Shown here piece by piece: positions 31,659 to 63,371 of a DNA stretch of 64,000 bases. A program made the position numbers and the translations under genes. The notes under the pieces were generated by a model, which saw only the letters and a program-made list of their open reading frames with translations, was not told where the DNA came from and ran no database searches. How positions within the stretch are numbered: the first letter of the stretch is position 1; each line of letters opens with the position of its first letter. Source of the stretch: an alpha proteobacterium AAP38 (GTDB taxonomy: Bacteria > Pseudomonadota > Alphaproteobacteria > Azospirillales > Azospirillaceae). The DNA lies in NCBI GenBank assembly GCA_001296005.1, contig LJHR01000023.1:62001-126000 (forward strand). The letters run 5' to 3'.

Positions 31659-34600
31659 TCAGGCGCCCTCTTCCTCATCCTCTTCCTCGCGGATCAGGGG
31701 CGATGACATTTCGGCACGCACCTGATCGATCAGGGAGGTGGCGGTAAAAGGCTTGCCAATGAAGCCATCCATGCCGGCCACCGCCAGTGCCGGCCAGGCC
31801 CGCGACCGTTCCGCCGCCGTCATGCCGATGATGCGCACATGCCGTCCCGGCCCTGGCAAGGCCCGGATACGACGCGTCGCAGCGGCCCCATCCATGCCCG
31901 GCATCTGCACATCCATCAGGACGGCATCGAACGACGTGTCTGCAACGGCATCGATGGCCTGCTGCCCCGACAGGGCCTGACTGACTCGGTACCCGGCACG
32001 GGCCAGCACGCTGGTTACCAGGGTCAGGTTCATGTCGTTATCATCAACCACCAGGATATGGGGAGCCTCCGGCTCCACCGGGGGCAACGCGGCTGTGCTC
32101 GTCGCATCCACCTCCGGCGTTTGGGCGGGCCGCTGCGCCAGCCGGGCAAGGATGGCAGACAATCGGTCCAGCACGGGCTCAACGGAAGTGGCCCAGTTAT
32201 CATCGCCAGAGCGCATCATGTCTTCCACTGCGCGAGCCTGATCACCCAGGTCGGCGGCACCGATGCTGGCCGCGGTACCGGCCAGTGTGTGCAGGATGGG
32301 CAGGACTTTATCCGCATCGCGCGCTTGGATCGCCGTACGCAAATGCAGGAAATCCGCCCCCTGCTGCCGCGCGAATCCATCCAGAAGCCGAAGCAGCAGA
32401 TCAGGATTGCCATCCGCCCGTTTCAGCGCGTCCTCCACATCCAGGAGCGGCGGCAGTTCACGCAGGAAATTGATCATCAGGCGCGGTGGGACGTTCAGGG
32501 GCGTAGAGACCGCGGCTGCGGCTGCGTCGCGGCGCGGCAGCCAGGTCAGCAGCGCTTCGACCAGTTCATCCACCACCACGGGCTTGGTGACATGGCCGTC
32601 CATACCGGCCTCCCGGCATTTCTGCCGGTCGCTTTGCAGCGCGTGTGCGGTCATGGCCAGGATGGGCAGGCGCGGCTTGCCCGGCACGGCCAGCGCCTCC
32701 TCCCGGATCACGCGGGTCGCCTGATACCCGTCCATCACCGGCATCTGGATATCCATCAGCACCAGATCGAACCGACCGGCCTTCACCTTGTCGGCGGCCT
32801 GCCGCCCATCCTCGGCCAGGGTGACCTGCATGCCCCAGCGGGTCAGCATGTCGAACGCAACCTGCTGGTTCAGCGGGTTATCCTCGACCAGCAGGATTTC
32901 GCCACCGGCAACCGGGGCCAGCCTTTCCTCCGGCCGGGCGCTGATCGATGCCGGCCCCCGCGCCTGCGCGAAGGACTGACGCAACGCCTCGCGCAGGGCC
33001 GTGGGCGTCACGGGCTTGGCCAGAATATTGCGCACGGGCGTGCCCGCCGTGGCGGCGGCCAACTCGTCCACATCATAGGCAGTGACCATCAGCATGGGCG
33101 GTGGCGGCGACGCGGCGGCCATGATGGCACGGCACAAATCCAGTCCGTCCGTTCCCGGCATGCGCCAATCGGCGATGACGAGATCGTACCCCGCCCCCTC
33201 GCTGCGGCGCAGACGTTCCAGCGCCTTTTCAACCGTCTGCACCCCCTCCACCGCCAGCCCGTACTGTTCCAGCATGCTGGTCAGCACGTCGATGGCCAAC
33301 GCGCTGTCATCGACCAGCAGAGCGCGCTTGCCCGTCAGGTCCACGTCGCTGTGCAGCAGATCGCCGGATGTGACAGGGCGCCAGCGCAGCGGCAGGCTGA
33401 AATGGAAGCGGCTGCCCTGCCCGACGGCGCTTTCAACGCCAATGGTGCCTCCCATCATCTCCACCAGTTGCCGGCTGATGGCGAGACCCAGCCCGGTGCC
33501 GCCATAGCGGCGGGTGGTGGAACTGTCGGCCTGGGAGAAGCTGATGAATAGCCGTTCCATCTGCTCCGCACTCATGCCGATGCCGGTATCCTCCACCTGC
33601 ACCGACAGGCGCAGGCTCTCATTCTCCTCCGCTTCGAAGGCGGCGGTGACGGTGACACGGCCCTCATGGGTAAACTTGATGGCGTTGGCGATCAGGTTGC
33701 TGATCACCTGGGTCAGGCGCAGCGGGTCACCCAACAGAACACGCGGCGCCCCCGTGGGCCGGCGCAGGATGAATTGCAAACCATGGCGCCGCGCCTCATC
33801 GGCATGCAGCGAGGCAACGGCATCCAGCAGCTCATCCAGCAGGAAATCCACGCATTCGATGGTGACGCGGCCAGCCTCGATCTTCGACAGGTCAAGGACG
33901 CTGTTGATGATGCCCAGCAGGGATTTGCCGGCCTCTTCGATCTTGGTCAGATATTCCCGCGCCTTGGGCGGCAGATCGGTGCGCAGTGCCAGATAGCTCA
34001 TGCCGATGACCGCATTCATCGGGGTGCGGATTTCATGGCTCATATTGGCCAGGAATTCCGACTTGGCGCGGCTGGCGGCCTCGGCGGCCAGCTTCGCCTC
34101 GCCCAGCGCCTCGGCAAGCCGCTGCAGCTCTTCCTCGCGCCGGCGCGCCTGGGTAACATCGGCATAGGACGTGACAAAGCCACCGCCCGGCATCGGGTTG
34201 CCATGGGCCTCCAGCACGGTTCCGTCAGGCCTTGTCAGTTCGAAATGATGCGGCTCGTTGTTGGCGGTGGCGCGCAGCCTTTCATCAATCAGGGCATCGA
34301 CACCGTCCGGCGCCACGGGGCCATATTCTTCCCGCAGGGCTTTCCAACGGATCAGGTCGCGCATGCCCACGCCCTGCCGGCACAGGCCGGGTGGCAGGCC
34401 ATGCATGGAAATGAAGCGGGTATTGAAGGCCAGTACGCGCAGATCGGCATCAAAGGCCACAATCCCCTGATCCACCGTATCCAGGACGGTGGCCAGCATC
34501 GTTTCCCGCGACCGCGCCGTGGCCCGCGTCTCCTCAAGCAGGCTGACATCCTGGAAGGTGCGAATCCATTGGCTGACACGACCGCCATCACCCAGGACGG

Positions 34601-35471
34601 GGGCGCTTTCCTCCCGAATCCAGCGATGGCCGCCATCGGGCATGGTCAGCCGGCACAGCCGGTTGATGACACCATCGGCGCTGCGCAGTGCGTCCGCCTG
34701 TTCCCCCGCCTCCAGACGTTCGGCGATCAGGGCGGGCAGCCGTTCGGTGGACATCGCCTCGTCATGCGACAATCCCATGAGACGCGGCAGATTGCCGGAG
34801 ATTTCGCAACCGCCGTCCACATCCTCCACCAGCCAGGCCAGATTGGCGACGCGTTGCGCCGCCGCCATCCTTTCCTCTCCCCAGCGCAGGGCGCGAAACC
34901 CTTCCCAGTTGCCGCGCAGGAACAGGATCTGCCCCATGGTCATCAGCAGCATCAGTAGGGATGTGCCCAGCCAGATTGGGTCGCTGCGATCGGCGATGCT
35001 CAACATGATGGCAGCCGCCATCATGGGGCCGGCATAGGCGACGCAGGCCTGCGGCACCACCGACAGGGCGGCGTTGGCCCCCACCGCCAGGAAGGCGCAG
35101 CCGCCGAGCAGCAGCGCCTTCGCCTCCAGCGGTGCATTGGACAGGTAGAACAGCATCATCCCGCCCCAATAGAGGCCCATGATGCTTGAACTGGCGATGA
35201 TGATGCGGATGCGGCGGCGGGATGCCGTGCGCGGCGGGCGCCGCCCCCGGCTGCGTAACAGGCCCCGAATGGCCGGCAGCATCAGCAGGGGCACACCCAG
35301 CAGCAAGGGTGTCAACGCCAGAAACGAGAAATCATGCCAAAGGACGACAGCACCGATCCAGGCGCCCAACAGATTTCCCAGGATGATCATGGGCAACTGC
35401 CGCACAAAGGCCGCCGATTGTGCGGCCCTTATCGTTTCATCGTCCTGGATACGGTACCAAGGGCTCAACAC
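31659..35471 (-). CDS. large membrane hybrid histidine kinase: 6TM-PAS-PAS-HisKA-HATPase-REC-REC-HPt-REC
   Basis: 1270 residues. The amino end holds about six membrane helices (25-185). Two PAS regions follow ([39 protein letters not shown]). The HisKA box is [17 protein letters not shown] (His about 479), with HATPase boxes [20 protein letters not shown] and [12 protein letters not shown]. Three receivers have acceptors in [24 protein letters not shown] and [12 protein letters not shown]. An HPt ([13 protein letters not shown]) lies between the last two. The terminal acidic tail is EEEDEEEGA. The start is GTG (or TTG one codon on). It is an orphan, with no adjacent regulator, so signalling may be internal or through a distant output. 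Confidence 0.93.
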
Positions 35472-35842: not shown

Positions 35843-36454
35843 CTACCCGGCCCCCTCCACAATCTCCATATCTTCATCCGCCACGGGCCGCGCAAAGTCG
35901 GGCACGGCGGTCAAGGGAGCGGTCAGCCATTCGCGCATGGCTTGCTGACCAATCAGAATGACGGGCATTGCCTTGGGATGGACCCCGCCAACCAGATCGT
36001 TGGGTTCGGTGGTCAGGAAACCAAACAGGTCATGATGACCAGTGACCGGGGCAGATTTCGGGCCACGCGCCCCCTCCCATGCGGCCCATATTCCGGCAAA
36101 GGCCGCAGGCCGATCATCGGTTACCTTGAACCATACCGCCTTCTTGGCGCCAGGATCCGCTGTGTACTCCGCGAACCGTTCGAAGGGCACCAGACAGCGA
36201 TTGGACGGGGAAAGCCAGCGCTGCCACCAGGGGCTGGTCAGGTTGCGGATATTTGTGATCGGGTGAGCCGTATCCTTGAATGGCGGCATCCCCCAGCGCA
36301 TCGCGCGCCAGGTCGGAATGCCTGCCTCCAGGCGCACCACAGGGGCCATGCGGTCGGGAAAAATCTCCAGCCGGGTTTCAGACCACGGCTCAAAACCGAA
36401 AATCTCTTCCGACAATCCAAGCTTCTGAATGGATGCCTGATATCGGTTACACAC
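35843..36454 (-). CDS. SOS response-associated peptidase family protein (SRAP, YedK/HMCES type)
   Basis: 203-residue SRAP protein that, by family knowledge, forms a covalent bond between its residue-2 cysteine and abasic sites in single-stranded DNA. The GTG at 36454 gives (M)CNRYQASIQKLG, placing the catalytic Cys exactly at position 2. AAGGAGGGG ends 3 bases before it. Other family segments are MRWGMPP, ITNIRNLTSPWW, NRCLVPFERFAEY, AAFAGIWAAWEG and PKAMPVIL; the active-site Asn, Glu and His positions are represented. The frame is also open upstream without a stop (see 36455-36736). The LexA-type box upstream makes it SOS-inducible. It lies beside prophage genes. Confidence 0.88.
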   Translation of the reverse strand: MCNRYQASIQKLGLSEEIFGFEPWSETRLEIFPDRMAPVVRLEAGIPTWRAMRWGMPPFKDTAHPITNIRNLTSPWWQRWLSPSNRCLVPFERFAEYTADPGAKKAVWFKVTDDRPAAFAGIWAAWEGARGPKSAPVTGHHDLFGFLTTEPNDLVGGVHPKAMPVILIGQQAMREWLTAPLTAVPDFARPVADEDMEIVEGAG

Positions 36455-36736
36455 CTGCCCCTCCTTCGTCCCGATCCAGCCAAGCTGCTGAACATTTGGC
36501 GCGCCGCGAGGAATGCGTCGACTTTGTGAGACGCCGACCCTACCACATCGCGGACAGCGGTAGCGGCGGGACCATTCTGAGGCTTCCATTTCTGGCGGCA
36601 CCCGCCCATCCAGCCAATCAAAGGCCCATAGCCGTGCATCGTCGCAGACCTGACAGAACATGCAGAGGTCGATCCGTAGCTGAATCAGTTCACCCAGGGT
36701 GCCGACCAGCCGGGAATGGTCAATGTGCGGATGCAT
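36455..36736 (-). other. in-frame cysteine-rich upstream reading frame (leaderless start) reading into SRAP
   Basis: 94 codons from the ATG at 36736 run without a stop directly into the SRAP frame. They encode LDLCMFCQVCDD and, later, YRCPRCGRVGVSQ, two Cys pairs that could form a zinc ribbon. The predicted transcription start coincides with the A of this ATG, so the frame could be translated leaderlessly. If so, a 297-residue fusion would be made alongside the internally started SRAP. A fusion would bury the catalytic Cys. Whether this frame is really translated is open. Confidence 0.45.
36458..36466 (-). promoter_or_regulatory. strong internal Shine-Dalgarno deciding the SRAP start
   Basis: On the minus strand AAGGAGGGG stands 3 bases before the GTG at 36454. 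It is among the strongest ribosome-binding sites in the window and lies within an already open frame, which argues for internal initiation at the catalytic cysteine. Confidence 0.75.
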
Positions 36737-36741
36737 GATGA

Positions 36742-36771
36742 GAACATAATAAGAACATTTTGAAGCGGCAA
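36742..36771 (-). promoter_or_regulatory. LexA (SOS) box overlapping a leaderless promoter
   Basis: GTTC-TTATTAT-GTTC (36756-36742) is a perfect match to the alphaproteobacterial LexA box GTTC-N7-GTTC. It overlaps a promoter with -35 TTGCCG (36771-36766), a 17-nt spacer and -10 TATGTT (36748-36743). The predicted +1 falls on 36736, the A of an ATG. LexA bound here would cover the -10 region. Confidence 0.85.
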
Positions 36772-36797
36772 GCCCCTGTCGCATTCACAAAAATACA

Positions 36798-36826
36798 TTG
36801 ATACCCTACGTAACGTAGGGTATCGT
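36798..36826 (+). promoter_or_regulatory. promoter with perfect 25-bp operator palindrome
   Basis: Arms GATACCCTACGT (36800-36811) and ACGTAGGGTATC (36813-36824) are perfect complements around a single A. The palindrome fills the 17-nt spacer of a promoter with -35 TTGATA (36798-36803) and -10 TATCGT (36821-36826). A dimeric repressor here would block RNA polymerase; the HTH protein encoded at 37207 is the obvious candidate for autoregulation. Confidence 0.75.
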
Positions 36827-36874
36827 TCATTCATTCGCCGCAGGGATGGCCAGCGGCAAGTCGGGAGAGCCGAA

Positions 36875-37210
36875 ATGAGCAAAATCACCTATACCGTCTA
36901 TTTCCAAGGCAACCTGTCGAACATTTCCGGCCGGAGACTTTCCCTGCGCGATGCTGTGGAGACGCTGTTAGGCGAGGACGGCTACCTGTTTAAGTTCCGC
37001 CGTCAGGGCGGGGTGCAGACAGTCCTGATATCCGAGAGGTCACAGAACAGCTATGGCGGCCATGGCCGGCTGGTTCCGACCCTGCTATCCGCCCCCACGC
37101 TGGATAAACTGCGTGAAAAGATCGTCGGACAAGCTTGGCACGGCGCCGTAGCAGTCACCGATTCCGAATACGATGCGCTGGTTGCCAGCGCCGAAAGCGA
37201 GGAAGAATGA
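36875..37210 (+). CDS. small protein of unknown function, first gene of an Acr/Aca-like operon
   Basis: 111 residues; I recognise no domain. It begins SKITYTVYFQGNLSNISGR and has a predicted mixed alpha/beta composition with an acidic end (SAESEEE). GGGAGAG lies 8 bases before the ATG. Its stop overlaps the start of the HTH gene by ATGA. It is next to the phage lysis genes but on the opposite strand, behind a palindrome-controlled promoter. The small orphan followed by an Aca-like regulator is the layout used to find anti-CRISPR genes, so an inhibitor of host defence is a candidate role. There is no direct evidence for that function. Confidence 0.7.
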   Translation: MSKITYTVYFQGNLSNISGRRLSLRDAVETLLGEDGYLFKFRRQGGVQTVLISERSQNSYGGHGRLVPTLLSAPTLDKLREKIVGQAWHGAVAVTDSEYDALVASAESEEE

Positions 37211-37623
37211 CTCCCCTTCATCTGGCGATGGCCGCCTGCGGGTTCTCCTCCCCGCAGGCGGCTGCCTTTCTTGGTGTATCCACGCAAACAGTGAAGGACG
37301 CCCTCAATCGGCCACACAAGATGCATGTGCCGCCCGGTTGGATTAGGGACTTGAGAAACCTTTACTTTCGTCAGCGTAAGGCCGCTGACGAAGCCTTAAA
37401 GATAATCTCAGTCCAAATTGCCGCAAACGGGCCCGGCGAAATCGAACTGGGATTCTGCGCAGACGACCACGAAGCACAGTCTTTGGGCTGGCCATCGGCT
37501 GCTGCGCACGCGACCACTCTAAGACTTATCTGGGAAGGTTTACCGAACGACTGTATATTGATTCTGTCCCCACGGGGCGGGACCGCTGCCACGGCAGCAG
37601 CGGCAGACGCACATAACCGGTAG
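37207..37623 (+). CDS. helix-turn-helix protein, Aca2/YdiL-like layout
   Basis: 138 residues, starting at the ATG inside the ATGA overlap. The amino end is a helix-turn-helix (SSPQAAAFLGVSTQTVKDAL), followed by VPPGWIRDLRNLYFRQRKAADEAL and, near the end, SLGWPSAAAHATTLRLIWEG. This order (HTH, VP-containing helix, helical linker, then a GW...A..... segment) resembles the YdiL/DUF1870 family, which includes the anti-CRISPR regulator Aca2. Similarity was judged by eye and is modest. By analogy it would repress its own operon through the palindrome at 36800-36824. It ends 4 bases before the convergent holin gene's stop. Confidence 0.7.
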   Translation: MTPLHLAMAACGFSSPQAAAFLGVSTQTVKDALNRPHKMHVPPGWIRDLRNLYFRQRKAADEALKIISVQIAANGPGEIELGFCADDHEAQSLGWPSAAAHATTLRLIWEGLPNDCILILSPRGGTAATAAAADAHNR

Positions 37624-37627
37624 CCCC

Positions 37628-38233
37628 TCACAGCTTGCCGCCAGCCCGTTGCCGGTTCCATTCCCTGATCGCCTCATCCGACAGAGGCTTACCATCGTCC
37701 GCCATCTCCGCCTGATAGCGCGCGGGGTCCATCGGTGCCGCCGGCGGATCAGGCGGTTTCTGGGCTGGCATAGGCGCCGGGCGCATCGCTTGTATTTCCG
37801 CCCGCGTAGCCATGACCGCCCGCAGCTGCTCCACCGTTGGCCCGCGGCCCCGACGTGCCGCCAATAATGTTCGGTCACCGAAAAAAAACGCGACGACAGC
37901 GCCCAGCACCAGCCACATTTCATCCGGGATCAATGCCCAGGCCTGGGCCGCCGCCGCGAACCCGACCGGGTCCACGGACGCCCAGACGAAGATACCGATC
38001 ACCCCCAGCGCCATGGCCGGGCGCGGCAGGCGGTTCAGACCATCAATCAAGCTGTCCCACGAGGTGCGGCCCTGACGGTCGGCGAACTCCGCACCGTACT
38101 GCTGAAACCGCGCCAACATCTCTGCATGCCGGCTGGCCTCGTCCTGTACCTTGTCACCGGTAAATGGCGTGATGGCGGTGGCCACCGCCTGGGCACCGCC
38201 GCCAATCAGGCCCGTCAGTATCTTGCCCAGCAT
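37628..38233 (-). CDS. phage holin, three-transmembrane GTA-holin type
   Basis: 201 residues. It starts MLGKILTGLIGGGAQAVATAI. A middle section carries two strong helices (PAMALGVIGIFVWASV and MWLVLGAVVAFFFGDR) with a third weaker hydrophobic segment around DPVGFAAAAQAWALIP, matching the 3-TM holin family named for gene-transfer-agent release. The carboxy end is long, hydrophilic and proline-rich. Its ATG lies immediately after the endolysin stop, making an endolysin-holin pair. It should form the membrane lesion that lets the endolysin out. Confidence 0.85.
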   Translation of the reverse strand: MLGKILTGLIGGGAQAVATAITPFTGDKVQDEASRHAEMLARFQQYGAEFADRQGRTSWDSLIDGLNRLPRPAMALGVIGIFVWASVDPVGFAAAAQAWALIPDEMWLVLGAVVAFFFGDRTLLAARRGRGPTVEQLRAVMATRAEIQAMRPAPMPAQKPPDPPAAPMDPARYQAEMADDGKPLSDEAIREWNRQRAGGKL

Positions 38234-38234
38234 C

Positions 38235-38879
38235 TCACACCCCCAGAAGCTTGCAGGCCAGCACCCACAGGGCGCGGCGATCATCGATCCCCATAAGGCC
38301 GCCATTGATCTTGCGGGTACAGGCGGTCAACTCGCCCGTATCGGCAAAACGGTTGCAGCCCTTCCAATCCCAGAACCACGCCGCCGACAGGGCCGCATGA
38401 TCGGGATTGAGTAACAGGTCAGGCTGCCCGATCAGATCGAGGCCAAGAGCGCTCCCCGCCCGTTGATAGGCCGTGCGGCCCGTCAGCTGGATCAGGCCGC
38501 GCCCGCGATAGCGCCAGCCATCGCCCGGCTGGACATTGCCCAGCTGCACCCGCCCGAACTCCCCGCCATAGACGATGCTGGCGATGGCTGCCGGATCGGC
38601 GGGCCGGGTTGGCGTACGACCAAGGCGCGCGGCATCCGCCTCGCTGATCCGCGCCGGCCCGAAGGTCGGCACCAGCTTGTCCACCGCGTAATTCAGGCTT
38701 TCGGAAAGCCGGCTGAACCCGCCGCTTTCATGCGCCACCTGCGCCAGGAACATCGCCTTGCGCGCCGGCGTGCCAATGTCAAAGCGCTCGCACGCCGCCT
38801 CCAGCGGCGGGGCGAAGCTGGCCAGGATGATGGGCCGCGTGGTCGGCACCAGGGCCGCCAGCAATGCCGTCGTGATCAT
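38235..38879 (-). CDS. phage endolysin, glycoside hydrolase family 19
   Basis: 214-residue lysozyme/chitinase-fold enzyme expected to cleave peptidoglycan glycan strands. Motifs: FLAQVAHESGGFSRLSESLNY with the catalytic Glu, YRGRGLIQLTGRTAYQ, and ACTRKINGGLMGIDDR. The start at 38879 (MITTALLAALV) is chosen because GGGGG lies 6 bases upstream and because earlier ATGs fall in a terminator hairpin. The amino end is mildly hydrophobic, and a signal-anchor role is possible but weak. It is paired with the holin downstream. Confidence 0.9.
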   Translation of the reverse strand: MITTALLAALVPTTRPIILASFAPPLEAACERFDIGTPARKAMFLAQVAHESGGFSRLSESLNYAVDKLVPTFGPARISEADAARLGRTPTRPADPAAIASIVYGGEFGRVQLGNVQPGDGWRYRGRGLIQLTGRTAYQRAGSALGLDLIGQPDLLLNPDHAALSAAWFWDWKGCNRFADTGELTACTRKINGGLMGIDDRRALWVLACKLLGV

Positions 38880-38892
38880 GGTAACCCCCATG

Positions 38893-38918
38893 AAAAAGCC
38901 CGGCACGAAGGCCGGGCT
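38893..38918 (-). terminator. intrinsic terminator between tail and lysis genes
   Basis: On the minus strand AGCCCGGC (38918-38911) and GCCGGGCT (38904-38897) form a perfect 8-bp stem with a 6-nt loop, followed by TTTTC. It would reduce transcription from the tail genes into the endolysin-holin pair, for example to delay lysis. Confidence 0.75.
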
Positions 38919-38945
38919 GGTCAATGTCGTGATGCTGTAAGGGGC

Positions 38946-39530: not shown

Positions 39531-40145
39531 TCAGATGACAGGCCAGGCAGCCAGCAGGGCCGCCACCTCCGCCTCCGTCACGGCTTCTGCCGCCAGCAGC
39601 TGCGCCGTGTAACTGGGCTGCGCCGGGTCGCCATCGATGCCGACAAAGACATCGAGATAATCGATCTTCTCGGCGCCAGCGAACACCAGCAGCAGCGGGC
39701 CATTCGACAGGATGGCAATGGCCCTGGCCTGCCCACCCTCGCCAAGCGCCGAAACCAGCAAGGACAGGAACACCATCTTTTTCAGGCTTGGCAGCGGAAC
39801 CGGCACAGGCGGCGGCGGGGCAGCGAACCCATCCCCATCGCGCACCCAACCGATCTGAACCTCTTCGCCAATGGCTTCCCAGCCCCTCTGCGCGGCGACG
39901 CCAGGCGTGGCGATGACGCGGTTAACGACCACATCATCGACCACTTCTGCGCACAGGCCAGGAACCTCCGGCGGTGGCGATGGAGCGTAGAAATCCTGAC
40001 CGTCATACAGCCAGCCAATTTCTACTTCCTGGCCGCAGTTACGCCAACCATCTCCAGATGGAGGCACAGCTGAGGTCAAGAGATCGGTGACGATGCCGTC
40101 AACGACACACGCGAAATTCAGAACAGCGGGAATATCCATCATCAT
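39531..40145 (-). CDS. phage tail-fibre-associated protein, unknown
   Basis: 204 residues. Two copies of a short repeat (GQEVEIGWLYDGQDFYAPSPP and GEEVQIGWVRDGDGFAAPPPP) lie in the first half, each preceded by a VVDGIVT or VVDDVVVN strand. Such repeats occur in fibre-assembly and tail-accessory proteins. The second half is helical (TAQLLAAEAVTEAEVAALLAAW). The start overlaps the stop of the glycine-rich fibre gene by ATGA, so it probably helps assemble or decorate that fibre. Confidence 0.7.
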   Translation of the reverse strand: MMMDIPAVLNFACVVDGIVTDLLTSAVPPSGDGWRNCGQEVEIGWLYDGQDFYAPSPPPEVPGLCAEVVDDVVVNRVIATPGVAAQRGWEAIGEEVQIGWVRDGDGFAAPPPPVPVPLPSLKKMVFLSLLVSALGEGGQARAIAILSNGPLLLVFAGAEKIDYLDVFVGIDGDPAQPSYTAQLLAAEAVTEAEVAALLAAWPVI

Positions 40146-41734
40146 ATCACTCCGGTGACTGTGAGCTGTCCATTACCGCCGACACCGCCAGCGCCGGAAT
40201 TCGTGCCGTCGAGCGAGGCGCCACCGCCACCGCCGCCACCCGATGTGCCTCCGGCTACGCCGACCGTGCCGATCCCTCCACCATTGCCGCCGTTCCCGGC
40301 TCCACCGGGTCCTCCGGTGCCGGCAGGACCGCCTGAACCGGCAGCGTCCAGATAAGCACCTGCGCCCCCGCCGCCGCCGCCATTGACAGACGATCCGCCA
40401 TCACCATTGTCACCGGCCGAGTCCATGCCGCCACCGCCGCCACCGCCGCCATCTCCAGACGGGTAACCCGGCGTTGATGAGTTGCCGGGTCCACCGTCGC
40501 CGCCACCGAATGCACCGGTCGCTCCAACGCGCGGGGCGCCGCCAGTGACACCAGATGGTGCGCCAAGCGTGCCGCCGCCGCCGCCGCCTGGCTGCCCGAC
40601 ATTCTGGCCACCCTTCCCTGGCGCACCGCCGAACACCGTCAGATGCGAACCGAAGCTTGTGTTGCCGCCGGCACTGCCGTCATTGCCGTCTGTATTGTTT
40701 GTCGTCACCGCAGCGCCGCCGCTGCCGCCAGCGCCAATCGTGACTGTTTCGGATGAGCTTAACGCCGATGATGCCAACAGCCGCCGGCGTCGCGCGCCGC
40801 CGCCGCCGCCAGATCCACCAGCGCGCGCCGCGCCATTCGGGCCGCGGCGACCACTACCGCCGCCTCCACCACCGGCAGAGCCATCTGCCAAGTGGAACCG
40901 ATACCCTGGCGGCTTCACCCAGGTTGATGAACTCGTAAATTGCATCGAGTACGGAGCGATGACGTAACTGTAGAACGCTGCTCCATCGCAGACGATCACA
41001 CGCATTTCACCGGGATACGAAACGAAGCTGGTGAGTCCGTCAATCAACTCCGATCCATTCGGATCAAGCGTCACCTGTCCGGTTCCGCTGTTCTTCGTAT
41101 AGCACCACCACCCGTTACCCAAAGTGGCCGCCGCCACCAGGGTCTGCGTGAAGGTTCCGTTCGTCCAATCGATAAGGGTTCCACGATCAGCGACGCCCAA
41201 GATGGTGTTGCTCGTCCTGGCCGACCTCTTGATCTTTCTGGCCTTGGCCGGCGTGATGTATCGGAGATCATCCGTCCCGGCATCAATTTCCGCTTCGGTC
41301 GCGATCTCGGTGACGCCAAACGAATTTTCTGTCGCAAGGTCAGCGGCGGTTCCGGTGCGCCCGCGCTTACCCATGCAGAAGATGTTCCAGGCCGCCAGCG
41401 TGCCGGCCCCACCGGTATCACCAACCGCAACACTTACCACCAGCGCGCCTGTGTCAGCGTTATAGCTGGTGACCGTGCCCTCCATGAAGTTGGCGCTATT
41501 GGCCTGGCTCTCAATGCGCACCCAGGCGCCAGCGAACAGCGGACGATCCTTGTCGATAGTCAGCGACTTGCTGCCGCTGCCGATGATCAGGCTGGTTGCG
41601 CTGTACGCCCGGAAAATGCCGCGAAATTGGGCGACGGCATCGTCAAGGGCGGGCACAAAGCCGCTATCTTCGGAGGCATAGGCCTGCCCCTGGAATGAGG
41701 CACTGTCATAATCATTGCCATTCAACGTCGGCAT
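40142..41734 (-). CDS. glycine-rich phage tail fibre protein
   Basis: 530 residues. Residues about 47-118 hold a beta module (SLIIGSGSKSLTI...FMEGTVTSYN...) shared with the two neighbouring tail proteins. The middle includes TPAKARKIKRS and a strand-rich region. From about 280 to the end it is extremely glycine-rich (for example GGGGGGSGRRG, GGPGNSSTPGYP), the kind of polyglycine sandwich found in adhesin tips of long-tailed phages. It probably contacts the host surface. The start overlaps the upstream stop as TGATG. Confidence 0.82.
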   Translation of the reverse strand: MPTLNGNDYDSASFQGQAYASEDSGFVPALDDAVAQFRGIFRAYSATSLIIGSGSKSLTIDKDRPLFAGAWVRIESQANSANFMEGTVTSYNADTGALVVSVAVGDTGGAGTLAAWNIFCMGKRGRTGTAADLATENSFGVTEIATEAEIDAGTDDLRYITPAKARKIKRSARTSNTILGVADRGTLIDWTNGTFTQTLVAAATLGNGWWCYTKNSGTGQVTLDPNGSELIDGLTSFVSYPGEMRVIVCDGAAFYSYVIAPYSMQFTSSSTWVKPPGYRFHLADGSAGGGGGGSGRRGPNGAARAGGSGGGGGARRRRLLASSALSSSETVTIGAGGSGGAAVTTNNTDGNDGSAGGNTSFGSHLTVFGGAPGKGGQNVGQPGGGGGGTLGAPSGVTGGAPRVGATGAFGGGDGGPGNSSTPGYPSGDGGGGGGGGMDSAGDNGDGGSSVNGGGGGGAGAYLDAAGSGGPAGTGGPGGAGNGGNGGGIGTVGVAGGTSGGGGGGGASLDGTNSGAGGVGGNGQLTVTGVI

Positions 41735-44208
41735 CAGGAATGCTCCTCCACGGTCAGTGCGGCGCGGTAATCGCCGAACTGGGGGTTTGAAAAATCCATG
41801 GTCTGGTCAGGGATGGACCCCCAGAGGGTCAACCGGTGCAGGTTGGCCGGGTCGGTCGGGTCCAGGATCAGGGCAAAGGGCTTGCGCACGCCAACGGCGC
41901 GGCGCAGCTCATACACTTGGCTCAACAGCTCATCGCGCCCGACATTGGCCAGTTGCAGGGAGGCGACCCGCCATTGCTTGCGGCCATCGACATAAATCTG
42001 CCCGCCGCGCGCCCGCTCCCGTTGTGACGGGTCCGTCCAGCCAATGCGCCAGTCCCAGGTCATGTTGATGGTCGGTTGATAGGCCGCCGCCACCACCAGC
42101 CGCCCGATATCCAGCCAGGACAGGCTGCTATCCTGCACCTCGATCTTCAGGTAGCGGGCATAGATGGGCTGCCCGTCACCATTGGCCAGCCCCGGCATAT
42201 GGACGCCGGGCGGTTGATACCCTTCACCCAGCAGGTCGATCTGCCCACCCCAGCGGAAATCACCCCAATAGGTCAGGCCAAACGGTTCCACCGCCGGCCA
42301 GACGGCCAGGTCTGCCGCTTCACGACTGATCGTAACCGCTGCCGCTGATCCAGACCCCACGACAGACGCGATGGATACGACAAGCCGGCGCGATGGCCGG
42401 TCATAGGATGTGACGGTACCGACGATATAGTTGCTGCTGTCGATGGAGAGGCGGACGCGGGCACCTGCGTAAAACCGCATGTTTTGATCATCGACATAGA
42501 CGGTTTTGGAACCGGTCCCCAGGGTGATCGGCTGGACGGCCTCCGTACCGGCATAGACCGCCAGCGTCGCGGCACGGGTGGCGGCGGAGGTGGCGGGGTT
42601 GGTCAGGGTCTGAAGGTCGGCGTTGCTGACCCGACTGGCGATGTAGGTGATGCGGCTGATCCAGCCGTTGAGCTGGTCTGTGCCGCTTGGCCTGCACCCC
42701 ATGCTAAACGTCGTTACAGTCGGTACGGCGCCAGAAGTGTCGGTAAGCGGAGAAGCACCGTTTCGGCTATATGCGAAATTGTCTTGCGCCCAACTTGCCG
42801 CCCTGCGCTGTTCTCCAGTAAAAGACGTTTCAAGCAAGACGGCTTGAGCAACACCCCCGGATTGAACAAGGTACTGGAAGTTGGCGGAACCGAATTGCGT
42901 ACCAACCTGGATCACGTTGTTGTTCGTGCCGTCGCCGATTTCCGCAGCTACTAGCTGCCCGGTACTACTACCAGCAACATATTGACTGCTTGCCACGACC
43001 AAGGTACCCGCCGACCCGTTGAACGACGGCAGCGCGCTGGTCGGCATCGTGGGGACATCCGCCGCGCGGGTGGCCGTAGTTCCGGCGGTGGGGATGTAGC
43101 TGGTTGGAAACGAACCGGCTTCAAGTTGCGTGCCCCAGGCCAGAAGCCCGGATGTATTATCGCCCGTGTAGGAGGCTTGTCCGTTCACATAGACGATGCA
43201 TCTGACGGAAGTGCCCGCTGTAGAGGATAGCGTTCCGCCTATCGTGCAGCGATACCAACCGTTTCCGACCGAAATGATGGAAGCGGAAGCACCAGACGCG
43301 GAACCAGATGCTGCGGCGGCAGACGTGATTGTTCCGGTAGAAACGTTGAACTCCGCTGTCAACCTGTCGACAAAAGCCGCATCCTTGTCCATGAGAAGGC
43401 TGACGACAGAATAGCCATCTGCTTTCACAAAGCATGAAAAGCTGTAAGCAGCATTTGGCGCGGCAGTAATGTTCCGCGCCACCGCGTGCTGACCGTTCAC
43501 TGCTGTCGCAGTCAACTTGTTCGCTGCGTTTGATCCGTCAGGTGCAGCTCCAGAACCGGCTGTTATGTTGAGAAGCGTAGCACCCCAACCGGTCGAAAAA
43601 TCAGCAGATTGCGTTACGAGGTTCGTCCGCGCCGCCTCAATCAACAGACCGCGCGCCGTCTTGGTCACCGGATCATAGTCAAACCGCGCCTCACCAGACG
43701 CCGCCGTCCGCATCGTGCCGGTAAAATCGAAATAGGTCGCGGTACTGGCCCGGCTGAAACTGGCCCCCGTTGGCAAGGTCCCGCTGGTCAAATCATGATC
43801 CAGCATCGTGCTGGTCCAGCTATAGCCCCCGCGCGCGGTGCCGCTGACCAGGATGCTGCGGGTGTCATAGACCGTGTCGGACAGCGCAAAGCTGTAACCC
43901 CCGGCATCACTGGCCGCCCCCGACCGCGCCCGCGCGCCGCGAATGCGCCAGCGGGCCGCCGCCGTGAAATTATGGCCCAGCAGCATGATCAGGCTGATCG
44001 GCACGGGATAACCCATATCCAGATCCAGAATCACGCTGCTGCCGATGGTCCGGCAAACCATCTTCAGCCGGTCATTCAGGATATTGGACAGGCCCATGCC
44101 CGCAACAAAGCTGGTCGGGCTGGTCAGGACCGTCGCGGCCTTGGTCGCAAAATCATTATTCGCGATCACGACATTGCGTGCGCGGCCGGTCATTGCATCC
44201 AATGGCAT
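41734..44208 (-). CDS. phage tail protein with inserted carbohydrate-binding-like domain
   Basis: 824 residues. The amino end (about 1-125; VIANNDFATKAATVLTSP...LLGHNFTAAARW) and carboxy end (about 640-824; GQPIYARYLKIEVQD...WDWRIGWTDPSQRERARGGQIYVDGR) look like two parts of one tail protein. Between them are a fibre-type domain (FSRASTATYFD...GLLIEAARTNLV...WYRCTIGGTLSS), a concanavalin-like stretch and one copy of the shared beta module. The insertion is probably a receptor-binding or capsule-binding domain. GGGGG lies just before the ATG. It belongs to the tail-tip cluster; the exact role is unproven. Confidence 0.78.
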   Translation of the reverse strand: MPLDAMTGRARNVVIANNDFATKAATVLTSPTSFVAGMGLSNILNDRLKMVCRTIGSSVILDLDMGYPVPISLIMLLGHNFTAAARWRIRGARARSGAASDAGGYSFALSDTVYDTRSILVSGTARGGYSWTSTMLDHDLTSGTLPTGASFSRASTATYFDFTGTMRTAASGEARFDYDPVTKTARGLLIEAARTNLVTQSADFSTGWGATLLNITAGSGAAPDGSNAANKLTATAVNGQHAVARNITAAPNAAYSFSCFVKADGYSVVSLLMDKDAAFVDRLTAEFNVSTGTITSAAAASGSASGASASIISVGNGWYRCTIGGTLSSTAGTSVRCIVYVNGQASYTGDNTSGLLAWGTQLEAGSFPTSYIPTAGTTATRAADVPTMPTSALPSFNGSAGTLVVASSQYVAGSSTGQLVAAEIGDGTNNNVIQVGTQFGSANFQYLVQSGGVAQAVLLETSFTGEQRRAASWAQDNFAYSRNGASPLTDTSGAVPTVTTFSMGCRPSGTDQLNGWISRITYIASRVSNADLQTLTNPATSAATRAATLAVYAGTEAVQPITLGTGSKTVYVDDQNMRFYAGARVRLSIDSSNYIVGTVTSYDRPSRRLVVSIASVVGSGSAAAVTISREAADLAVWPAVEPFGLTYWGDFRWGGQIDLLGEGYQPPGVHMPGLANGDGQPIYARYLKIEVQDSSLSWLDIGRLVVAAAYQPTINMTWDWRIGWTDPSQRERARGGQIYVDGRKQWRVASLQLANVGRDELLSQVYELRRAVGVRKPFALILDPTDPANLHRLTLWGSIPDQTMDFSNPQFGDYRAALTVEEHS

Positions 44209-44209
44209 C

Positions 44210-46552
44210 TTACCCCCAGAGCGTCAGGGTCACGCGGTTGTCGCCCGCATCTTCGTCAATCCCCAGCACGCGCATCAGGCGCCCGCCGGAAAGCCCAAAC
44301 CGGCCATCGGTCAGGCTGACGGCCTGGCCGATCTCCACCGCGAATGGTTCCGTCTTGGCCGGCGCGGTGAACACCGCGCGCGGCACGCCATGCAGGTCCA
44401 TCTGCCGCTGCTGTTCGGCCAACGCATCCGCCTCATACAGCAGCAGCGTATCCAGGCGGTCTGCGACCGCCCGCTGCCCATAAAGGCTGCGCACACGCCC
44501 GTCTGCCGATGCCACCGGGTACCGGTAGGCCGCTTGGAAAGACCGCAGCTGCGCCGTCGTGATGGCGATATTGTCCAGCGACCCGGCAAATGCCGCATCC
44601 TTGGACACGGTCAGGGTGGGCGTAGCCGCCGTCGCCGTGAATGCATATTCAACCGCCCCGCTGGCCGACACCGCCCCCAGGGTCAGGGCACCCACCTTGA
44701 AGGTCAGGGTCCCTGCCGTCCGGGTGACATCGGCGGCCAGGATATAATCCTGCCCAACATCCAGGGTGATTGATTGCGTCAGGTCAGAGGCAGAGCCGGC
44801 AGCGGCACTGGCCATTCCGCCGGCAATGCTCCACCCCGTCCCCTTGGTCCAGACGGTGTCACTGTCGAAGGTGCCATTGGCCACTGCATTGCGGCGGACG
44901 CTGTCGGCCAGATCATCGACCCCCATCACCCGCCAGTTGCGGGCAAATCCCACCGACATGCGCCAGACGGGCGCCCGCGCCTCCTCCCGCGCGAAACCGT
45001 CCAGCAGATTGTCGCCGTCAATGGCCAGCACTGCGGCGCCCGCCGGGGCCTCCAGCCGCCCGGCATCAAACAGGCCCGCGCGGTTGAACCCGTACCAGGC
45101 CCCGATGCTGTTGGCGATTTCGTCCAGCACATCCAGGGCGTTGCCGCCGTCACGCAAATAGACCTGCACCACCGCCGGGTTGATCGCATGCAGCGCGTCA
45201 AAGACATCGCCGCCGACGGCGGTGGCAATCTCCCCCGGCAGCAACCCGACCTTGGTCACGGTCCAGTCGGCAAAGGTCCCAACCCCCGCCGTCGCCGTCA
45301 CCGTTACAGTCAGAACCCCTGCCGCCCAGCCGGTCACCTGCCCGAACATCCAGTTGCTGTCGGGTGCCGTCGTGGCGGCAATCAGCGCGTAACCACCCAC
45401 ACCCATGGGCATCGTGTCACGCAGGGCCAGCGTACGACTGCCCGTTCCGATGGTCAGGCTGGACAGGCTGATGGCGCTGTCCAGCACCAGACGGCGTGTG
45501 GCCAGATATTCCATGGCCCGCGCCGCCGATGGTTCCGCCGGCGCATCCACGCTGCCGATGACATCGGCGGTCAGCAGCTTCGGTTCATCCCCGCCGACAA
45601 TCACGGCACCATTGGCGGCATCCAGGGTCCATTGCCCCGCCGCCGGATTGGCCGCGACATAGGTGAGGGGAACGCCCCGGTCCCGCACCACATGCCAGCC
45701 GCTGTCATAGGTATGGACGGCTCCGCCGCCATGAAACTGAAACGTGAAGCGGCCATTGACGATACCAAGCGGCACCAGCTCCACATTCAGGCACTTGCCG
45801 ATGCAGATGGGCTTGGCCTGATCGCGCAGGTCCACACCGCCCTCAAACCCGCCGGTCCCACGATAGCGCGGGCTATACAGATCCTGATCCAGCAGCTTGG
45901 TCAGGTCCTTGACGGCGATGCTGAACGTACCGTCATCCAGGGTGCAGCCATCGGTGATGCCGACAAAGATGATGCCGAAATCGGCCCGCGCAAAATCCTC
46001 CCCGCCAAGCTCGACCGTGATGCGCCGCCCGTCCCATCCCCATTCCCCGAAACCGTCGCAGGCCCCGTCGCCATTATTGAGCGTGATATCGCCAAATCCG
46101 GGGATCGACCGCCCGCCGATGCGCGCGCCGCCATACATGCTGCGGGTAAAGCGCAGCGCGTTCTGGACCCGGCCCTCATAATGCACATTGGCGGGGCTGT
46201 CCGTGGGGCTGCTGTTATAGCCATGCACCGACCAGTAACGGGTGACCAGCCCCGTCAGCTCCAGGGCCGCCGCCGCCACATCGGCCAGGGTCACGCCCGT
46301 CACCGCCACCCAGGACCCATCCTGCGCCAGATCCGCGATGGTCACCGGCACATCGGCCAGGGCCGGGCGCGTCAGGGTCAGCGCGTCACCCACCCGCAGC
46401 ACCGTAAAGGTTCCCGCCGCCGCCAGCAGCCGGTTGCCCGCCGCCTGCTGCGCCATGCTGGCCCGCACGATGGCATAGGGCTGTGCCGTCACCAGATAAT
46501 CGCGGATCGATGCCGGATCAGTGATCAACGCATCAAAGGCGGCCCCCATCAC
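44210..46552 (-). CDS. phage tail tip/hub protein
   Basis: 780 residues. The first half contains NVHYEGRVQNALRFTRSMYGG and ITVELGGEDFARADFGIIFVG, followed by KDLTKLLDQDLYSPRYRGTG, features of a large tail-tip protein family of siphoviruses. Residues about 363-434 are a copy of the shared beta module. The end (EIGQAVSLTDGRFGLSGGRLMRVLGIDED) resembles the terminal segment of tail hub proteins. It is next to the tape measure gene, overlapping it by ATGA, the usual position for baseplate or tip components. Confidence 0.75.
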   Translation of the reverse strand: MMGAAFDALITDPASIRDYLVTAQPYAIVRASMAQQAAGNRLLAAAGTFTVLRVGDALTLTRPALADVPVTIADLAQDGSWVAVTGVTLADVAAAALELTGLVTRYWSVHGYNSSPTDSPANVHYEGRVQNALRFTRSMYGGARIGGRSIPGFGDITLNNGDGACDGFGEWGWDGRRITVELGGEDFARADFGIIFVGITDGCTLDDGTFSIAVKDLTKLLDQDLYSPRYRGTGGFEGGVDLRDQAKPICIGKCLNVELVPLGIVNGRFTFQFHGGGAVHTYDSGWHVVRDRGVPLTYVAANPAAGQWTLDAANGAVIVGGDEPKLLTADVIGSVDAPAEPSAARAMEYLATRRLVLDSAISLSSLTIGTGSRTLALRDTMPMGVGGYALIAATTAPDSNWMFGQVTGWAAGVLTVTVTATAGVGTFADWTVTKVGLLPGEIATAVGGDVFDALHAINPAVVQVYLRDGGNALDVLDEIANSIGAWYGFNRAGLFDAGRLEAPAGAAVLAIDGDNLLDGFAREEARAPVWRMSVGFARNWRVMGVDDLADSVRRNAVANGTFDSDTVWTKGTGWSIAGGMASAAAGSASDLTQSITLDVGQDYILAADVTRTAGTLTFKVGALTLGAVSASGAVEYAFTATAATPTLTVSKDAAFAGSLDNIAITTAQLRSFQAAYRYPVASADGRVRSLYGQRAVADRLDTLLLYEADALAEQQRQMDLHGVPRAVFTAPAKTEPFAVEIGQAVSLTDGRFGLSGGRLMRVLGIDEDAGDNRVTLTLWG

Positions 46553-49500
46553 CGGCCCCCCGCCTTTTCGGTGCGGGCCAGCCTGGCCAGCTGCTCATTG
46601 GACTTGACCAGACGGGCCGTCAGGTCGGCATTGACCTTCGCCTGCTGTGCACGATCCGCCCTGCTGGCCGCCATCTCCCCACGCAGCGCACGCAGTTCCG
46701 CCAGCTGCGCGGGATCGCTGGCGGGCTGACCCTGGCTTGCCCGCGCCGCCTGCCGATAGATCGTCTCCAACATCACGCTGTGCGGCACCGACAGCACCCG
46801 CTCACCCGGCATACCCAGGATATGCACACTGTCCCTTCCCGTGATACCGCCAGTGATGATGCCCCCGGCGGACATAGGGCGCGGGTTGGTCAGGGCATAG
46901 ATTTGCTGCGCGGCACTCGTGAACGAACTGGACAGGTTGGCCCAATCCTGCGCCCGCAGGATATCAATGGCGGCACTGTTCCCCCCCTGAAGCGCCGTGG
47001 CCAGAACATCATTGATGAAACCCCGCGCGATGCCGGAGAAATCGTTGATGCCATAGGCCTGGGCCTTGTCGATCCCGTACTGCAGGAAGTTATAGCCCGA
47101 TCCATATTTATTGCCGGCATTCACCGCGAAGTCGGTGATATCGCCGCCGGTCAGCCCCTCGATCTGTGACGCGATGGTCGATAGGGCGGTTGCCAGGGCC
47201 TTGGCCCGCGCGTCCGACGTGCTGTCGCTGCCTTTGCCACCCTGCGCCGTGATGGCACCCGTACTGGCATCGACCTGATACCAGGTGGAGGTCAATGACT
47301 TGGCCGCCTCCACACTCTTGGCCCCGGCCAGGGCCGTGCTGGCGCTGGATGCCGCCCGCATCACCGGGCTGACATAAGCCTGCAAGCCTGAATCATAGGC
47401 ACCTCTGGCCGCATCGCTGGCCGCCTGCGCCTGCATCGCGGCAATCAAGGCCGGGAACTGCGCCGTCAGGGCCGTCAGGCTGGTCACCAGCGGGCTTTGC
47501 TGATCCAGCAGGCTTTTCAGGCTGACATTCCAATCGGGCGCCCCCACCGCCTGGGCAAACACGGCATTGACCCGTTCCACCAGGGTGCGGGGATCATCGC
47601 TGCTGGTCCAATTGGCAATGGCGTGCCCGAACTGGCTGTTGATGCGGGTGGACAGCGCCTCTGCCGTCCATGTGCCGACCGCCTGGGTGACGGTCTGCCC
47701 CGCCTGCACCGCCAGCGGCGGGAAAGTGATCTGCCCGCCCAGGGCCTGGGTAAACAGGCCCTCAATGCCCTTGGTCAGCGCCAGATCGATATTGACCGAC
47801 CCGAACGCCGCCTCCACCGCCGCCGGAATGCGCCCCTGCGGATCCAGCAGGAAATTGCCGATGCTGGTGATGGCAGCACCTGCTGTGACCAGAGCCTGAC
47901 GATACTGCTCCAGCTGATCCTGCCGGAAGTTGGTCAGGGCCGTAGCAATGGCCCCCTGCCCCGTAGTCAGCGCCTCTTTCTGCGCATCGGTCAGGGTGCC
48001 GGCAACCAGTTGCGGGCGGATGGCCTCAATTGCGGTTTTCACGGCCTGCGCCGATGCCCCCGGCAAGTTCACGAATTGCTGGTACAGGCTGTTCAGCGTC
48101 GTGTTGACCGCGGTGATTTCATCAACGGTCAGGACACCATCGGCAATAGCCGCCGCAATGGCCTGCGCCGTCGGCTGACCCAGGTCGCTGGACAGCAGAT
48201 CGCGGATGCTTTTCAGGATGACAACCTGCGTATCAGCCAGATCGGCCATCCGGTCAAAGGCCGTCGCCCGGATATCGGCCACTGTGGCTACCTGGGCCAG
48301 CGCCTTCTGAACGCGGTCGAAGTCATTGACATAGTTCGGGCCGGTGGCATTCATCGCCTTCGACGCCTCCAGCAGGCTGGTCCCCGCCTGGGCGATCTTT
48401 TCCGCGCTGACCTGATCGCCGGTCATGGCCACGCTGTAAAGCCGGTCAAACTCGCTCGACAGGGCGCTATACCGGTCGCCCGGCGACAGGGGCGACAGAT
48501 CGCCGGTCAGATTGGATTTGATCTGCTCACGCAGGCTGGTCGCGACATCGCGCAGGGCCTTTGCCTGGGTCCGCGCACTGTCGGCCAGCTGCTGCGCCAG
48601 ATCAATCTGCGTATCCAACTGGTCATTGATGGTGGCGGTCAGGTCGCGGATGCGGGCCTTCACCCGGTCAACGGCGGTGACTAGCCCGCCCATCATGCTC
48701 AGCTGCTGTTCGGTCAGCGTCCCAAAGAAATCGGACAGCTCCAGGGCATTGGCGCGGCGCACCTGCGCCAGGTCATATTCAGCGATCAGCGCATCCTGCA
48801 CCCGCTGATCCTGCGCCTTGGTCAGCGCCCGCAGGTCGGCGCGGGCCTGATTGCCGGTCAACCGGTCAATCACCGCCTGCACATCATCCCCGAATTCCTG
48901 CCGCAACACCGCCCGCTGCTTTTGATAGCTGGCGGTCAGGGCCTCCACGGGCTGACCCAGGCGCACCGCCTCTTGCCGCAGGCTTTCGAACTTGTCATCC
49001 AGGGCCGATACGCGCCGTGCGTAATCGCTGACAGTTTGGCCGGCGGCGATAAAGGCACTGACGCTGCTGGCCAGGGCATCCTGTTCGGCTGCCATCTGCT
49101 GCTGGCGCTTGTCGCGGGCCGCCTGCCCCCCGAACAGGGCACCGATACCCGCCCCCGCCAAGGCCCCCCACGGCCCCGCGATCAGATACCCACCCGCTGC
49201 ACCGATGCCCGCGTTGCGCGCCCGCTCGTTCGACAGGCCCAGCATCTTGCCGACACCCTGGGCAACACCGAACGCCGCCAGGGCACCGGAAACCGCCTGC
49301 CCGATGCCGGGAAGCATGGATTCGATTTCCGTGCGGAACGCCTTGTAGAATTTCTGGAGGCTCTGATCCATCGCCGATGCGATGCCGGCACGCAGGATGG
49401 ACGCGCCATCGACGCTGCCATCTGCAATGGCCTTTTGCACCAACTGGCTGAATTGCTGGGCTTCGCCAGCATAGATATTGCCATTGGCGATGTCGCCTGC

Positions 49501-59001: not shown

Positions 59002-59028
59002 GATGATCATCCTCTTGATGGTGCAGTT

Positions 59029-59646
59029 TCAGGGATAGCCGTTGGCGCGCAACAAGGCCTTGGCCCGTGCTGCCAGCGGATTAACCGGCGCTCCGCCGGG
59101 TGGGGTGAACAGCGATCGCGTGGCCACGCTTGTGCGTGCATAGGCCGGCATGGAGGTGATGGTCACCTCCCGCAAATCAACCTGCTGCAACGCGACCGAT
59201 TGCAGCCGACCGCGATCATCGAACGTCGTCTTAGTCTTGACCGGCAGAAAGCCGAAAGAATGGCCCTTCAGGTTTCCGACCCGCACCTGTTCATAGGTGT
59301 CGCGTCCCAACTGGGTATCCGGCAACTGGGCATTGATCCGCAGGCCCTTGGCATCCTCCGACAGCGTCAGATTACCGGCGCTGGTACGGGCCAGCAGGGC
59401 GCGCGGATCATGCTCGAACAGGTAGCGGATATCCCGACCGCTGCGCAGGCTGTCAGCGAAAGCGCCCGCCTCGATCCATTCCTCAAATTCACCCGACCAA
59501 CTGCGTATCTTGGCCTTTGTGCCGAAGGTCGCGACATAGCCGACCAGCAGCCGCTTGGCGTCATCCTCCGCCCGCAATTCAAGGTCGATGGCGCAGCGCA
59601 TATCCATATCGGCGGGGCGTTCCCCATCCTTGTCAGGCAGCAGCAT
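59029..59646 (-). CDS. HK97-family prohead protease
   Basis: 205 residues from the ATG at 59646 (CCGGAG upstream), starting MLLPDKDGERPADMDM. Catalytic residues are visible as the His in YLFEHDPRALLAR and the Ser in GHSFGFLPVK, with an acidic partner nearby. The characteristic opening strand ELRAEDDAKRLLVGYVATFG and EWIEAGAFADSL are present. It should cleave the capsid delta domain during maturation. It overlaps the portal gene by 14 bases. Confidence 0.92.
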   Translation of the reverse strand: MLLPDKDGERPADMDMRCAIDLELRAEDDAKRLLVGYVATFGTKAKIRSWSGEFEEWIEAGAFADSLRSGRDIRYLFEHDPRALLARTSAGNLTLSEDAKGLRINAQLPDTQLGRDTYEQVRVGNLKGHSFGFLPVKTKTTFDDRGRLQSVALQQVDLREVTITSMPAYARTSVATRSLFTPPGGAPVNPLAARAKALLRANGYP

Positions 59647-63179: not shown

Positions 63180-63371
63180 TCCCGCCTCGCTGCCTTCCTC
63201 CAACCCACTAAAAAATAAAAAATTCTCCGGCCCACCCAGAAAATTTTCCACACATGACACCCTGTGCGGTCAGGCCCCTGCCGCCGCCCAGGGATTGACA
63301 CCCCCCTACCCCCATGCGCCTTGGCAGGGGGTAGGAGGTGCCCTCATGCGCCCTACGCGGGGCTGGGCGGG
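63180..63371. other. gene-free region between HNH and terminase genes, candidate cos/packaging site
   Basis: 192 bases with no gene. It contains an A-rich stretch (63209-63222), the palindrome GAAAATTTTC (63239-63248), and the inverted repeat CCTACCCCC (63305-63313) with GGGGGTAGG (63327-63335). This is where cos sites lie in HK97-like phages. The nick site cannot be located by eye. Confidence 0.5.

Follow-up and report, generated by a model that had tools for sequence, protein, structure and literature searches.

What a small two-gene operon does in a prophage whose late genes run against it is the question raised by this locus, which lies in a 64,000-nucleotide stretch of alphaproteobacterial DNA (the window). 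The first-pass annotation had read it as a candidate anti-CRISPR gene with an Aca-like repressor. Part of this interpretation stands, namely the Aca2 fold of the second protein and the autoregulatory layout; the second protein does not match the Pfam model Aca2_YdiL. We consider it likely that the operon is a self-contained, autorepressed anti-defence cassette (a moron) whose Aca2-fold regulator acts on DNA and probably on RNA. It consists of the following elements.

36798..36826, plus strand: core promoter, with -35 TTGATA at 36798-36803, a 17-nt spacer and -10 TATCGT at 36821-36826 (sequence; a relative in genome G063 has a like layout)
36800..36824, strandless: 12+1+12 palindrome without mismatch, the putative operator to which the HTH protein would bind (sequence; promoter-region dyads in relatives)
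36837..36857, plus strand: leader hairpin SL1, with 8-nt arms that pair except for a single A.A mismatch, and the 5-nt loop GAUGG (folding; covariation in relatives)
36861..36873, plus strand: leader hairpin SL2, a 4-bp stem with the loop GAGAG within the purine-rich ribosome-binding stretch (folding; relatives)
36875..37210, plus strand: 111-aa orphan cargo gene, candidate anti-defence and perhaps anti-CRISPR gene (family searches, one convincing homologue)
37207..37623, plus strand: 138-aa HTH gene, proposed autorepressor (predicted Aca2/YdiL/SO3848 fold)

As the annotation had stated, the 111-aa orphan gene is followed by the HTH gene with an ATGA overlap. The palindrome that it had placed across the 17-nt promoter spacer is equally real: the 12-bp arms pair without a mismatch and span the spacer plus four bases of each promoter hexamer. 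No other odd palindrome in the window is as long, the runner-up having 8-bp arms, and about 0.009 odd palindromes of 25 bp would be expected from the base composition. The window shows two traits by which aca genes are recognized, an inverted repeat within the core promoter and a small HTH gene that directly follows a small phage gene within the same operon, the latter being found in the relatives as well. According to the available text of PMC9410906, each tested Aca family has a conserved inverted repeat in its core promoter. The two leader hairpins between promoter and start codon are absent from the earlier annotation.

The placement of the operon beside prophage lysis genes and antisense to the late genes was likewise correct, as matches to PHROGs indicate for the following minus-strand neighbors.

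37628..38305, minus strand: phage protein of PHROG 6637, function unassigned, holin-like by position and eye
38235..38924, minus strand: endolysin of the same prophage (PHROG 181, E 2.1e-75)
40142-44208, minus strand: tail genes
46549-51555, minus strand: tape measure gene
57478-59010, minus strand: major head protein gene
59633-60913, minus strand: portal gene
60910-62655, minus strand: large terminase gene, read as L076:2914-4656
62655-63260, minus strand: small terminase gene

PHROGs matches also comprise a minor tail protein, a tail terminator and a head-tail adaptor, and two of the nine proteins in one PHROGs scan match only PHROGs of unknown function. By the same matches, phage genes continue from the lysis genes through the terminase to a primase. 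An att repeat of this prophage was not recognized.

Among 82 genomes of the family, both genes are convincing, adjacent and in the same order only in the strain's own genome and in G063, a genome of another genus. The latter encodes the sole convincing homologue of the 111-aa protein (37% identity), whose gene also directly precedes a related HTH gene. In the G063 operon (L008:7517-8262) the ATGA overlap is kept, and the promoter (TTGACA, 17 nt, TAATTT) has its spacer filled by a palindrome of different sequence from that in the window. This operon is situated among the tail genes of its phage by eye, not at lysis genes. Searches that used only the 111-aa protein recovered no relative from viral contigs, genome contigs, or phage or plasmid records, and a two-row profile of the pair returned the G063 contig again and nothing else. 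Two family-genome matches to the 111-aa protein (E 0.004 and 0.009) were set aside, being partial and located within long frames.

The 138-aa protein alone also found nothing in viral contigs, but profiles did find relatives. They recovered 28 loci in viral contigs and at least three in genome contigs (two Roseomonas MAGs and one Hyphomicrobiaceae MAG). A search of the class, which covered 385 genomes, gave matches at E<=1e-4 in at least seven, namely the own genome, three that were retained and three weak ones that were discarded. The L013 member, used as query, matched one annotated phage, Bradyrhizobium phage ppBeUSDA76-1, and no plasmid record. After removal of copies (L010, L014, L018, L020, L021, and L024 duplicate other loci) and of the fragments L044 and L045, there are at least 34 loci including the window. 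The weak, partial class matches L049-L051 (E 1.5e-5 to 9.3e-5) were left out of the counts, and a match to the 138-aa protein in G022 (E 0.0055) was dropped for its two internal stops. The near-identical viral contigs L012 and L011 (L012:1272-2204 versus L011:5473-6405) differ by a base that removes the cargo stop, and in L012 the cargo and HTH genes form one frame.

The structure predicted for the 138-aa protein (pLDDT 91.5) agrees with the proposed kinship. It combines the HTH, a long backbone helix, a strand, two helices and a second strand in one globule, as in the Aca2/YdiL fold, and its best structure matches are SO3848, Aca2, and YdiL, over both domains. The order of helices and strands is identical to that of Aca2 as printed in the accessible part of PMC8434428. 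Identity to Aca2 across the structural alignment is 13%, and the top PDB sequence match of the HTH family profile is Aca2 (E 6e-4). The Aca2/YdiL relation proposed in the first-pass annotation thus holds at the level of the fold, whereas the profile search against the Pfam model failed: the 138-aa protein has no match to PF08965 (Aca2_YdiL) at E<=10. PF08965 matches six of 28 family members at E<=0.01 (best 8.1e-4), fewer than the general Pfam HTH models HTH_31 (13/28), Sigma70_r4_2 (9/28), and HTH_3 (8/28). The commonest weak NCBIfam match is the telomere-associated Tap (15/28), and HTH antitoxin families are weakly matched by five members (NadS), one (MqsA-type) and one (HipB-type). HHalign against Escherichia coli YdiL alone gave a probability of 9.4% over 48 columns, and PF08965 matched nothing in 200 genomes of the phylum. 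No publication on this regulator family was recognized in the literature searched, although some may well exist. There is good support for the regulator and its autoregulatory layout, and we have very little doubt that the HTH protein acts as an autoregulator, which we infer to dimerize, to bind DNA and RNA and to repress its own promoter.

The genes that accompany this regulator are diverse, a third trait of aca genes. When the 35 cargo ORFs called between promoter and HTH gene were compared by BLASTP and phmmer at E<=0.01, they formed about 26 unrelated groups, of which 20 are singletons and six have two to four members (one fused L041 ORF links two groups; start codons were picked by eye, and the comparison was made without L012, L027, L046, L048, and L052). 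Exchange of cargo while the autoregulator is conserved is typical of aca genes. For 31 of the 35 ORFs, which were scanned against family models, the best Pfam match is a tail assembly chaperone (E 0.0053, one member) and the best NCBIfam match has E 0.002; PHROGs yielded phrog_8020 (unknown function, three members) and two weak matches. No named Acr family of Pfam, PHROGs, or NCBIfam was hit by any of the 31. The 111-aa protein itself hits SRP19 alone in Pfam (E 0.086, below the cut-off) and nothing in PHROGs, NCBIfam, or PADLOC, and the profile of the 111-aa pair has no match better than E 0.05 among solved structures. Aca2-like proteins with upstream acr genes number only 35 of 1223 in the text available of PMC9410906; thus, the fold alone does not make a neighbor an Acr. 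As stated in the portion of PMC11065993 that is accessible, Aca proteins may govern other anti-defence genes, and conserved regulatory sequences are used to locate these. We think that the cargo is probably an anti-defence protein.

The presumed switch recurs in the relatives. For 27 loci with a placeable first start codon, a dyad (arms of at least 6 bp, 5-nt centre) lies 45-95 nt upstream of that codon in 21, compared with 195 of 5000 random positions in the same loci, and dyads with 5-bp arms and a 7-nt centre occur in 24. By eye, most are flanked by a TTGA-like -35 on one side and a -10-like hexamer on the other. No operator could be placed in L027, L034, and L048, which have upstream DNA, while L025, L026, L038, and L052 end too near the operon for judgement.

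SL1, defined by 8-nt arms with at least seven pairs and a 4-5-nt loop 17-25 nt before the start codon, is present in all 24 folded leaders, where dinucleotide shuffles lead one to expect 3.7; these leaders are not all independent, since L039 and L043 were placed via the hairpin and a few are near-copies. It also occurs in L012 and L046, i.e. in 26 of 30 loci with upstream DNA, and is absent from L019, L027, and L048. In L034, a perfect 8-bp hairpin with the 6-nt loop AATCAG (L034:3434-3455) precedes the first cargo gene by 25 nt and likely is an SL1 variant beyond the search criterion. In 20 of the 24 leaders SL1 has one mismatch, invariably A.A, A.C, or C.A. Pairing was counted in two ungapped sets that were picked via the hairpin itself, which biases the counts in its favor, and relatedness can inflate the covariation controls; L022 and L041 were omitted because their SL1 is identical to that of L016. 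Within these limits, the 13 sequences with a 5-nt loop have 90.4% of cells paired (72.8% when shuffled), eight double-changed cells versus 2.4 (none of 500 shuffles as high) and five pairs with a double change versus 2.1 (10 of 500 shuffles). The nine sequences with a 4-nt loop have 88.9% of cells paired (76.7% when shuffled) and six double-changed cells versus 2.0 (none of 500 shuffles), and their three pairs with a double change versus 1.8 do not exceed the shuffles (106 of 500). RNAalifold on a MAFFT alignment of the leaders was weak (a 7-pair consensus) because the 4- and 5-nt loops were misaligned. Leader folds stand out from shuffles only modestly, with a mean z of -1.67, and several of the leaders, taken singly, fall short of significance. 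A small hairpin follows 3' of SL1 in nearly all 24 leaders (irregular in L017); judged by eye, its loop or stem contains the purine-rich stretch for ribosome binding. In Rfam, one match below the cut-off lies inside the coding region, and no other was found at E<=1. Altogether, control at the RNA level through the leader hairpins has a good chance of being real.

The operon might then work as follows. Upon phage entry, the strong promoter would yield the 111-aa and HTH proteins together. The HTH protein, as an Aca2-fold dimer, would bind the promoter dyad and block RNA polymerase, and it would probably also grip the hairpins of the mRNA leader, the second of which contains the ribosome-binding stretch, so that translation is switched off. 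Meanwhile the 111-aa protein would disable a host defence; the likeliest target would be the type II-C-like Cas9 of the host, and another defence system is possible.

This host does possess a CRISPR-Cas locus. Its genome encodes cas9 (1092 aa), cas1, and cas2, with PADLOC matches to Cas9, Cas1_II, and Cas2_II, a CRISPR array in which 35 repeats enclose 34 spacers, and a 15-nt anti-repeat 5' of cas9. No csn2 or cas4 was noticed in the ORF list, and the locus thus likely, if not provably, is of type II-C. Similar loci exist in G063 and G162. Three of the 34 spacers match the own genome. Spacer 33 matches C16:127527 in 29 of 30 bases, with the mismatch at the first base; the site corresponds to window coordinate ~65,527, just beyond the window end, inside a DNA primase gene that is found after the terminase genes and before a CI-like repressor. 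We infer that this primase gene and the operon belong to the same prophage. Spacer 7 matches an oxidoreductase gene on C14 (L077:9598, 30/31) that looks chromosomal by eye, and spacer 25 matches C35 (L078:523, 29/30), a contig that appears plasmid- or ICE-like, again by eye. The own-genome array gave no match to phage records, and the short G063 array no clear self-target. Since Cas9 occurs in 26 of the 82 family genomes, to find it in the two genomes that carry the 111-aa gene has a chance probability of about 0.1 and is weak evidence. Cas1 was found in four of the seven searched genomes with a relative, the three without it being G368 and the two Roseomonas MAGs. Two other observations concern these loci. 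G063 contig C448:8240-8865 (L083-L085) has repeat-like matches of 76-77% identity to the G063 array and is perhaps a second CRISPR array; in G045 (C5:662118-665269) the Cas9 match is split over two frames, and that cas9 is perhaps broken.

A pair of small overlapping prophage genes with an HTH regulator and a promoter dyad could also represent a toxin-antitoxin module, with the 111-aa protein as toxin and the HTH protein as antitoxin and autorepressor, and some family members are indeed weakly similar to the HTH antitoxins of NCBIfam. The toxin partner of an antitoxin is usually conserved, however, and this regulator has been paired with about 26 unrelated partner groups. Moreover, among the best 50 structure matches listed, Aca2 is matched at full length and antitoxins in the HTH part alone, and the 111-aa protein lacks a toxin family in Pfam or NCBIfam, which makes this reading very improbable. 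An autoregulated moron whose cargo has no part in defence evasion, and functions instead in superinfection exclusion, host takeover or lysis timing, would be in line with the 111-aa protein having no known family, with the weak chaperone match of one cargo ORF (Pfam, E 0.0053), with the similar lysis-region genes (by eye) that adjoin the operons in the window and G368, and with Aca2-like regulators mostly lacking known acr genes (PMC9410906, as far as its text is available). Yet the exchange of some 26 orphan cargo groups behind one regulator and leader looks more like an arms race than like a fixed role in the phage, the position of the operon varies between phages (by eye), and a host spacer matches the window prophage. 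We regard a role outside defence as unlikely.

The anti-defence reading leaves two points for which other explanations exist. SL1 might be a second DNA operator without RNA action, as it is an inverted repeat 3' of the first dyad, and the acrIF8-aca2 promoter also has two inverted repeats, the second being IR2 (PMC8434428, in its available text). This seems improbable in view of the G.U pairs at SL1 positions 1, 3, and 5 in some members, the loop of merely 4-5 nt, the sequence difference from the first dyad, and the second small hairpin that is found at the ribosome-binding stretch in nearly all leaders. Self-targeting serves as a route to anti-CRISPRs (title of PMC6739104). Alternatively, it can reflect an inactive CRISPR-Cas system or a target site without a PAM, in which case no anti-CRISPR would be needed; the match of three of the 34 spacers to the own genome, one of them in a chromosomal-looking gene, favors this, while open reading frames for cas9, cas1, and cas2 with type II matches and the anti-repeat 5' of cas9 speak against it. 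Such an explanation is a serious one, falling somewhat short of an even chance. Inhibition of the host II-C-like system by the 111-aa protein is plausible, with the II-C-like locus and the spacer against this prophage as circumstantial evidence, and we give this possibility slightly less than even weight.

A 2024 paper by Birkholz et al. (Nature 631:670) attributes anti-CRISPR control, in its title, to an HTH protein that binds both DNA and RNA, reportedly Aca2, and the leader hairpins of the window suggest the same double control. The acrIF8-aca2 operon of Pectobacterium phage ZF40 resembles the window in that a small gene precedes the gene of an HTH autorepressor with this two-domain fold, in the dyad inside the core promoter and in the phage context (PMC8434428, available text). 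It differs in operator sequences and in its regulator, to which the 138-aa protein is only 13% identical and which the latter does not join in PF08965, and no family match ties the 111-aa cargo to AcrIF8. YdiL of E. coli and Salmonella and SO3848 of Shewanella share the fold of the HTH model over both domains; both are without known biological function according to the accessible part of PMC8434428, and E. coli ydiL is annotated between rprA and ydiM. The aca3 gene of Neisseria lies beside inhibitors of type II-C, the likely type of the host. Its likeness to the window gene is one of context, and Aca3 is listed as 70 aa with HTH domains only (PMC9410906, available text).

Anti-CRISPR and other anti-defence genes are rarely similar in sequence and hence are often found through their neighbors. 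A regulator family with a recognizable dyad and leader hairpin would offer a handle for such genes, here about 26 orphan groups, and the same switch in front of many different orphan genes in related phages may point to undiscovered anti-defence proteins. If true, the operon control by DNA and RNA binding reported for Aca2 would extend to a distant branch of the fold. With a spacer in its CRISPR array that is directed at the very prophage holding the operon, the strain lends itself to a direct test. Speculatively, the loci could form a class of cassettes, mainly in alphaproteobacterial phages, in which one Aca2-fold regulator reads dyad and hairpin, the approximately 26 cargo groups are largely unexplored anti-defence genes, and the 111-aa protein is the first of a new family of inhibitors of type II-C Cas9, which lets the self-targeted lysogen survive; taken as a whole, this is a tentative picture that we would not expect to hold in every part.

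Some features of the surroundings deserve mention. In G368 (L046), gene 107-736 resembles the window gene at 37628-38305 by eye and the HTH gene is on the opposite strand; an antisense family member near a lysis-region-like gene there as well means that the insertion place recurs. On the other side of the operon lies a divergent gene.

35843-36784, minus strand: SRAP-domain gene (Pfam PF02586, E 1.7e-20, residues 112-308)

We take this gene to be of the HMCES/YedK type. Its SRAP part begins at residue 112, and two CxxC pairs are found in the N-terminal part, which perhaps is a zinc ribbon fused ahead of the usual N-terminal Cys start, or else a frame that reads through into it. Just 5' of the second start codon in this frame is a GTTC-N7-GTTC box (36742-36756, minus strand), presumably the LexA motif of alphaproteobacteria, of which 0.91 matches are expected in the window by chance. 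Left of the SRAP gene, 31659-35471 on the minus strand encodes a 1270-aa protein that by eye resembles a hybrid histidine kinase with several receiver domains.
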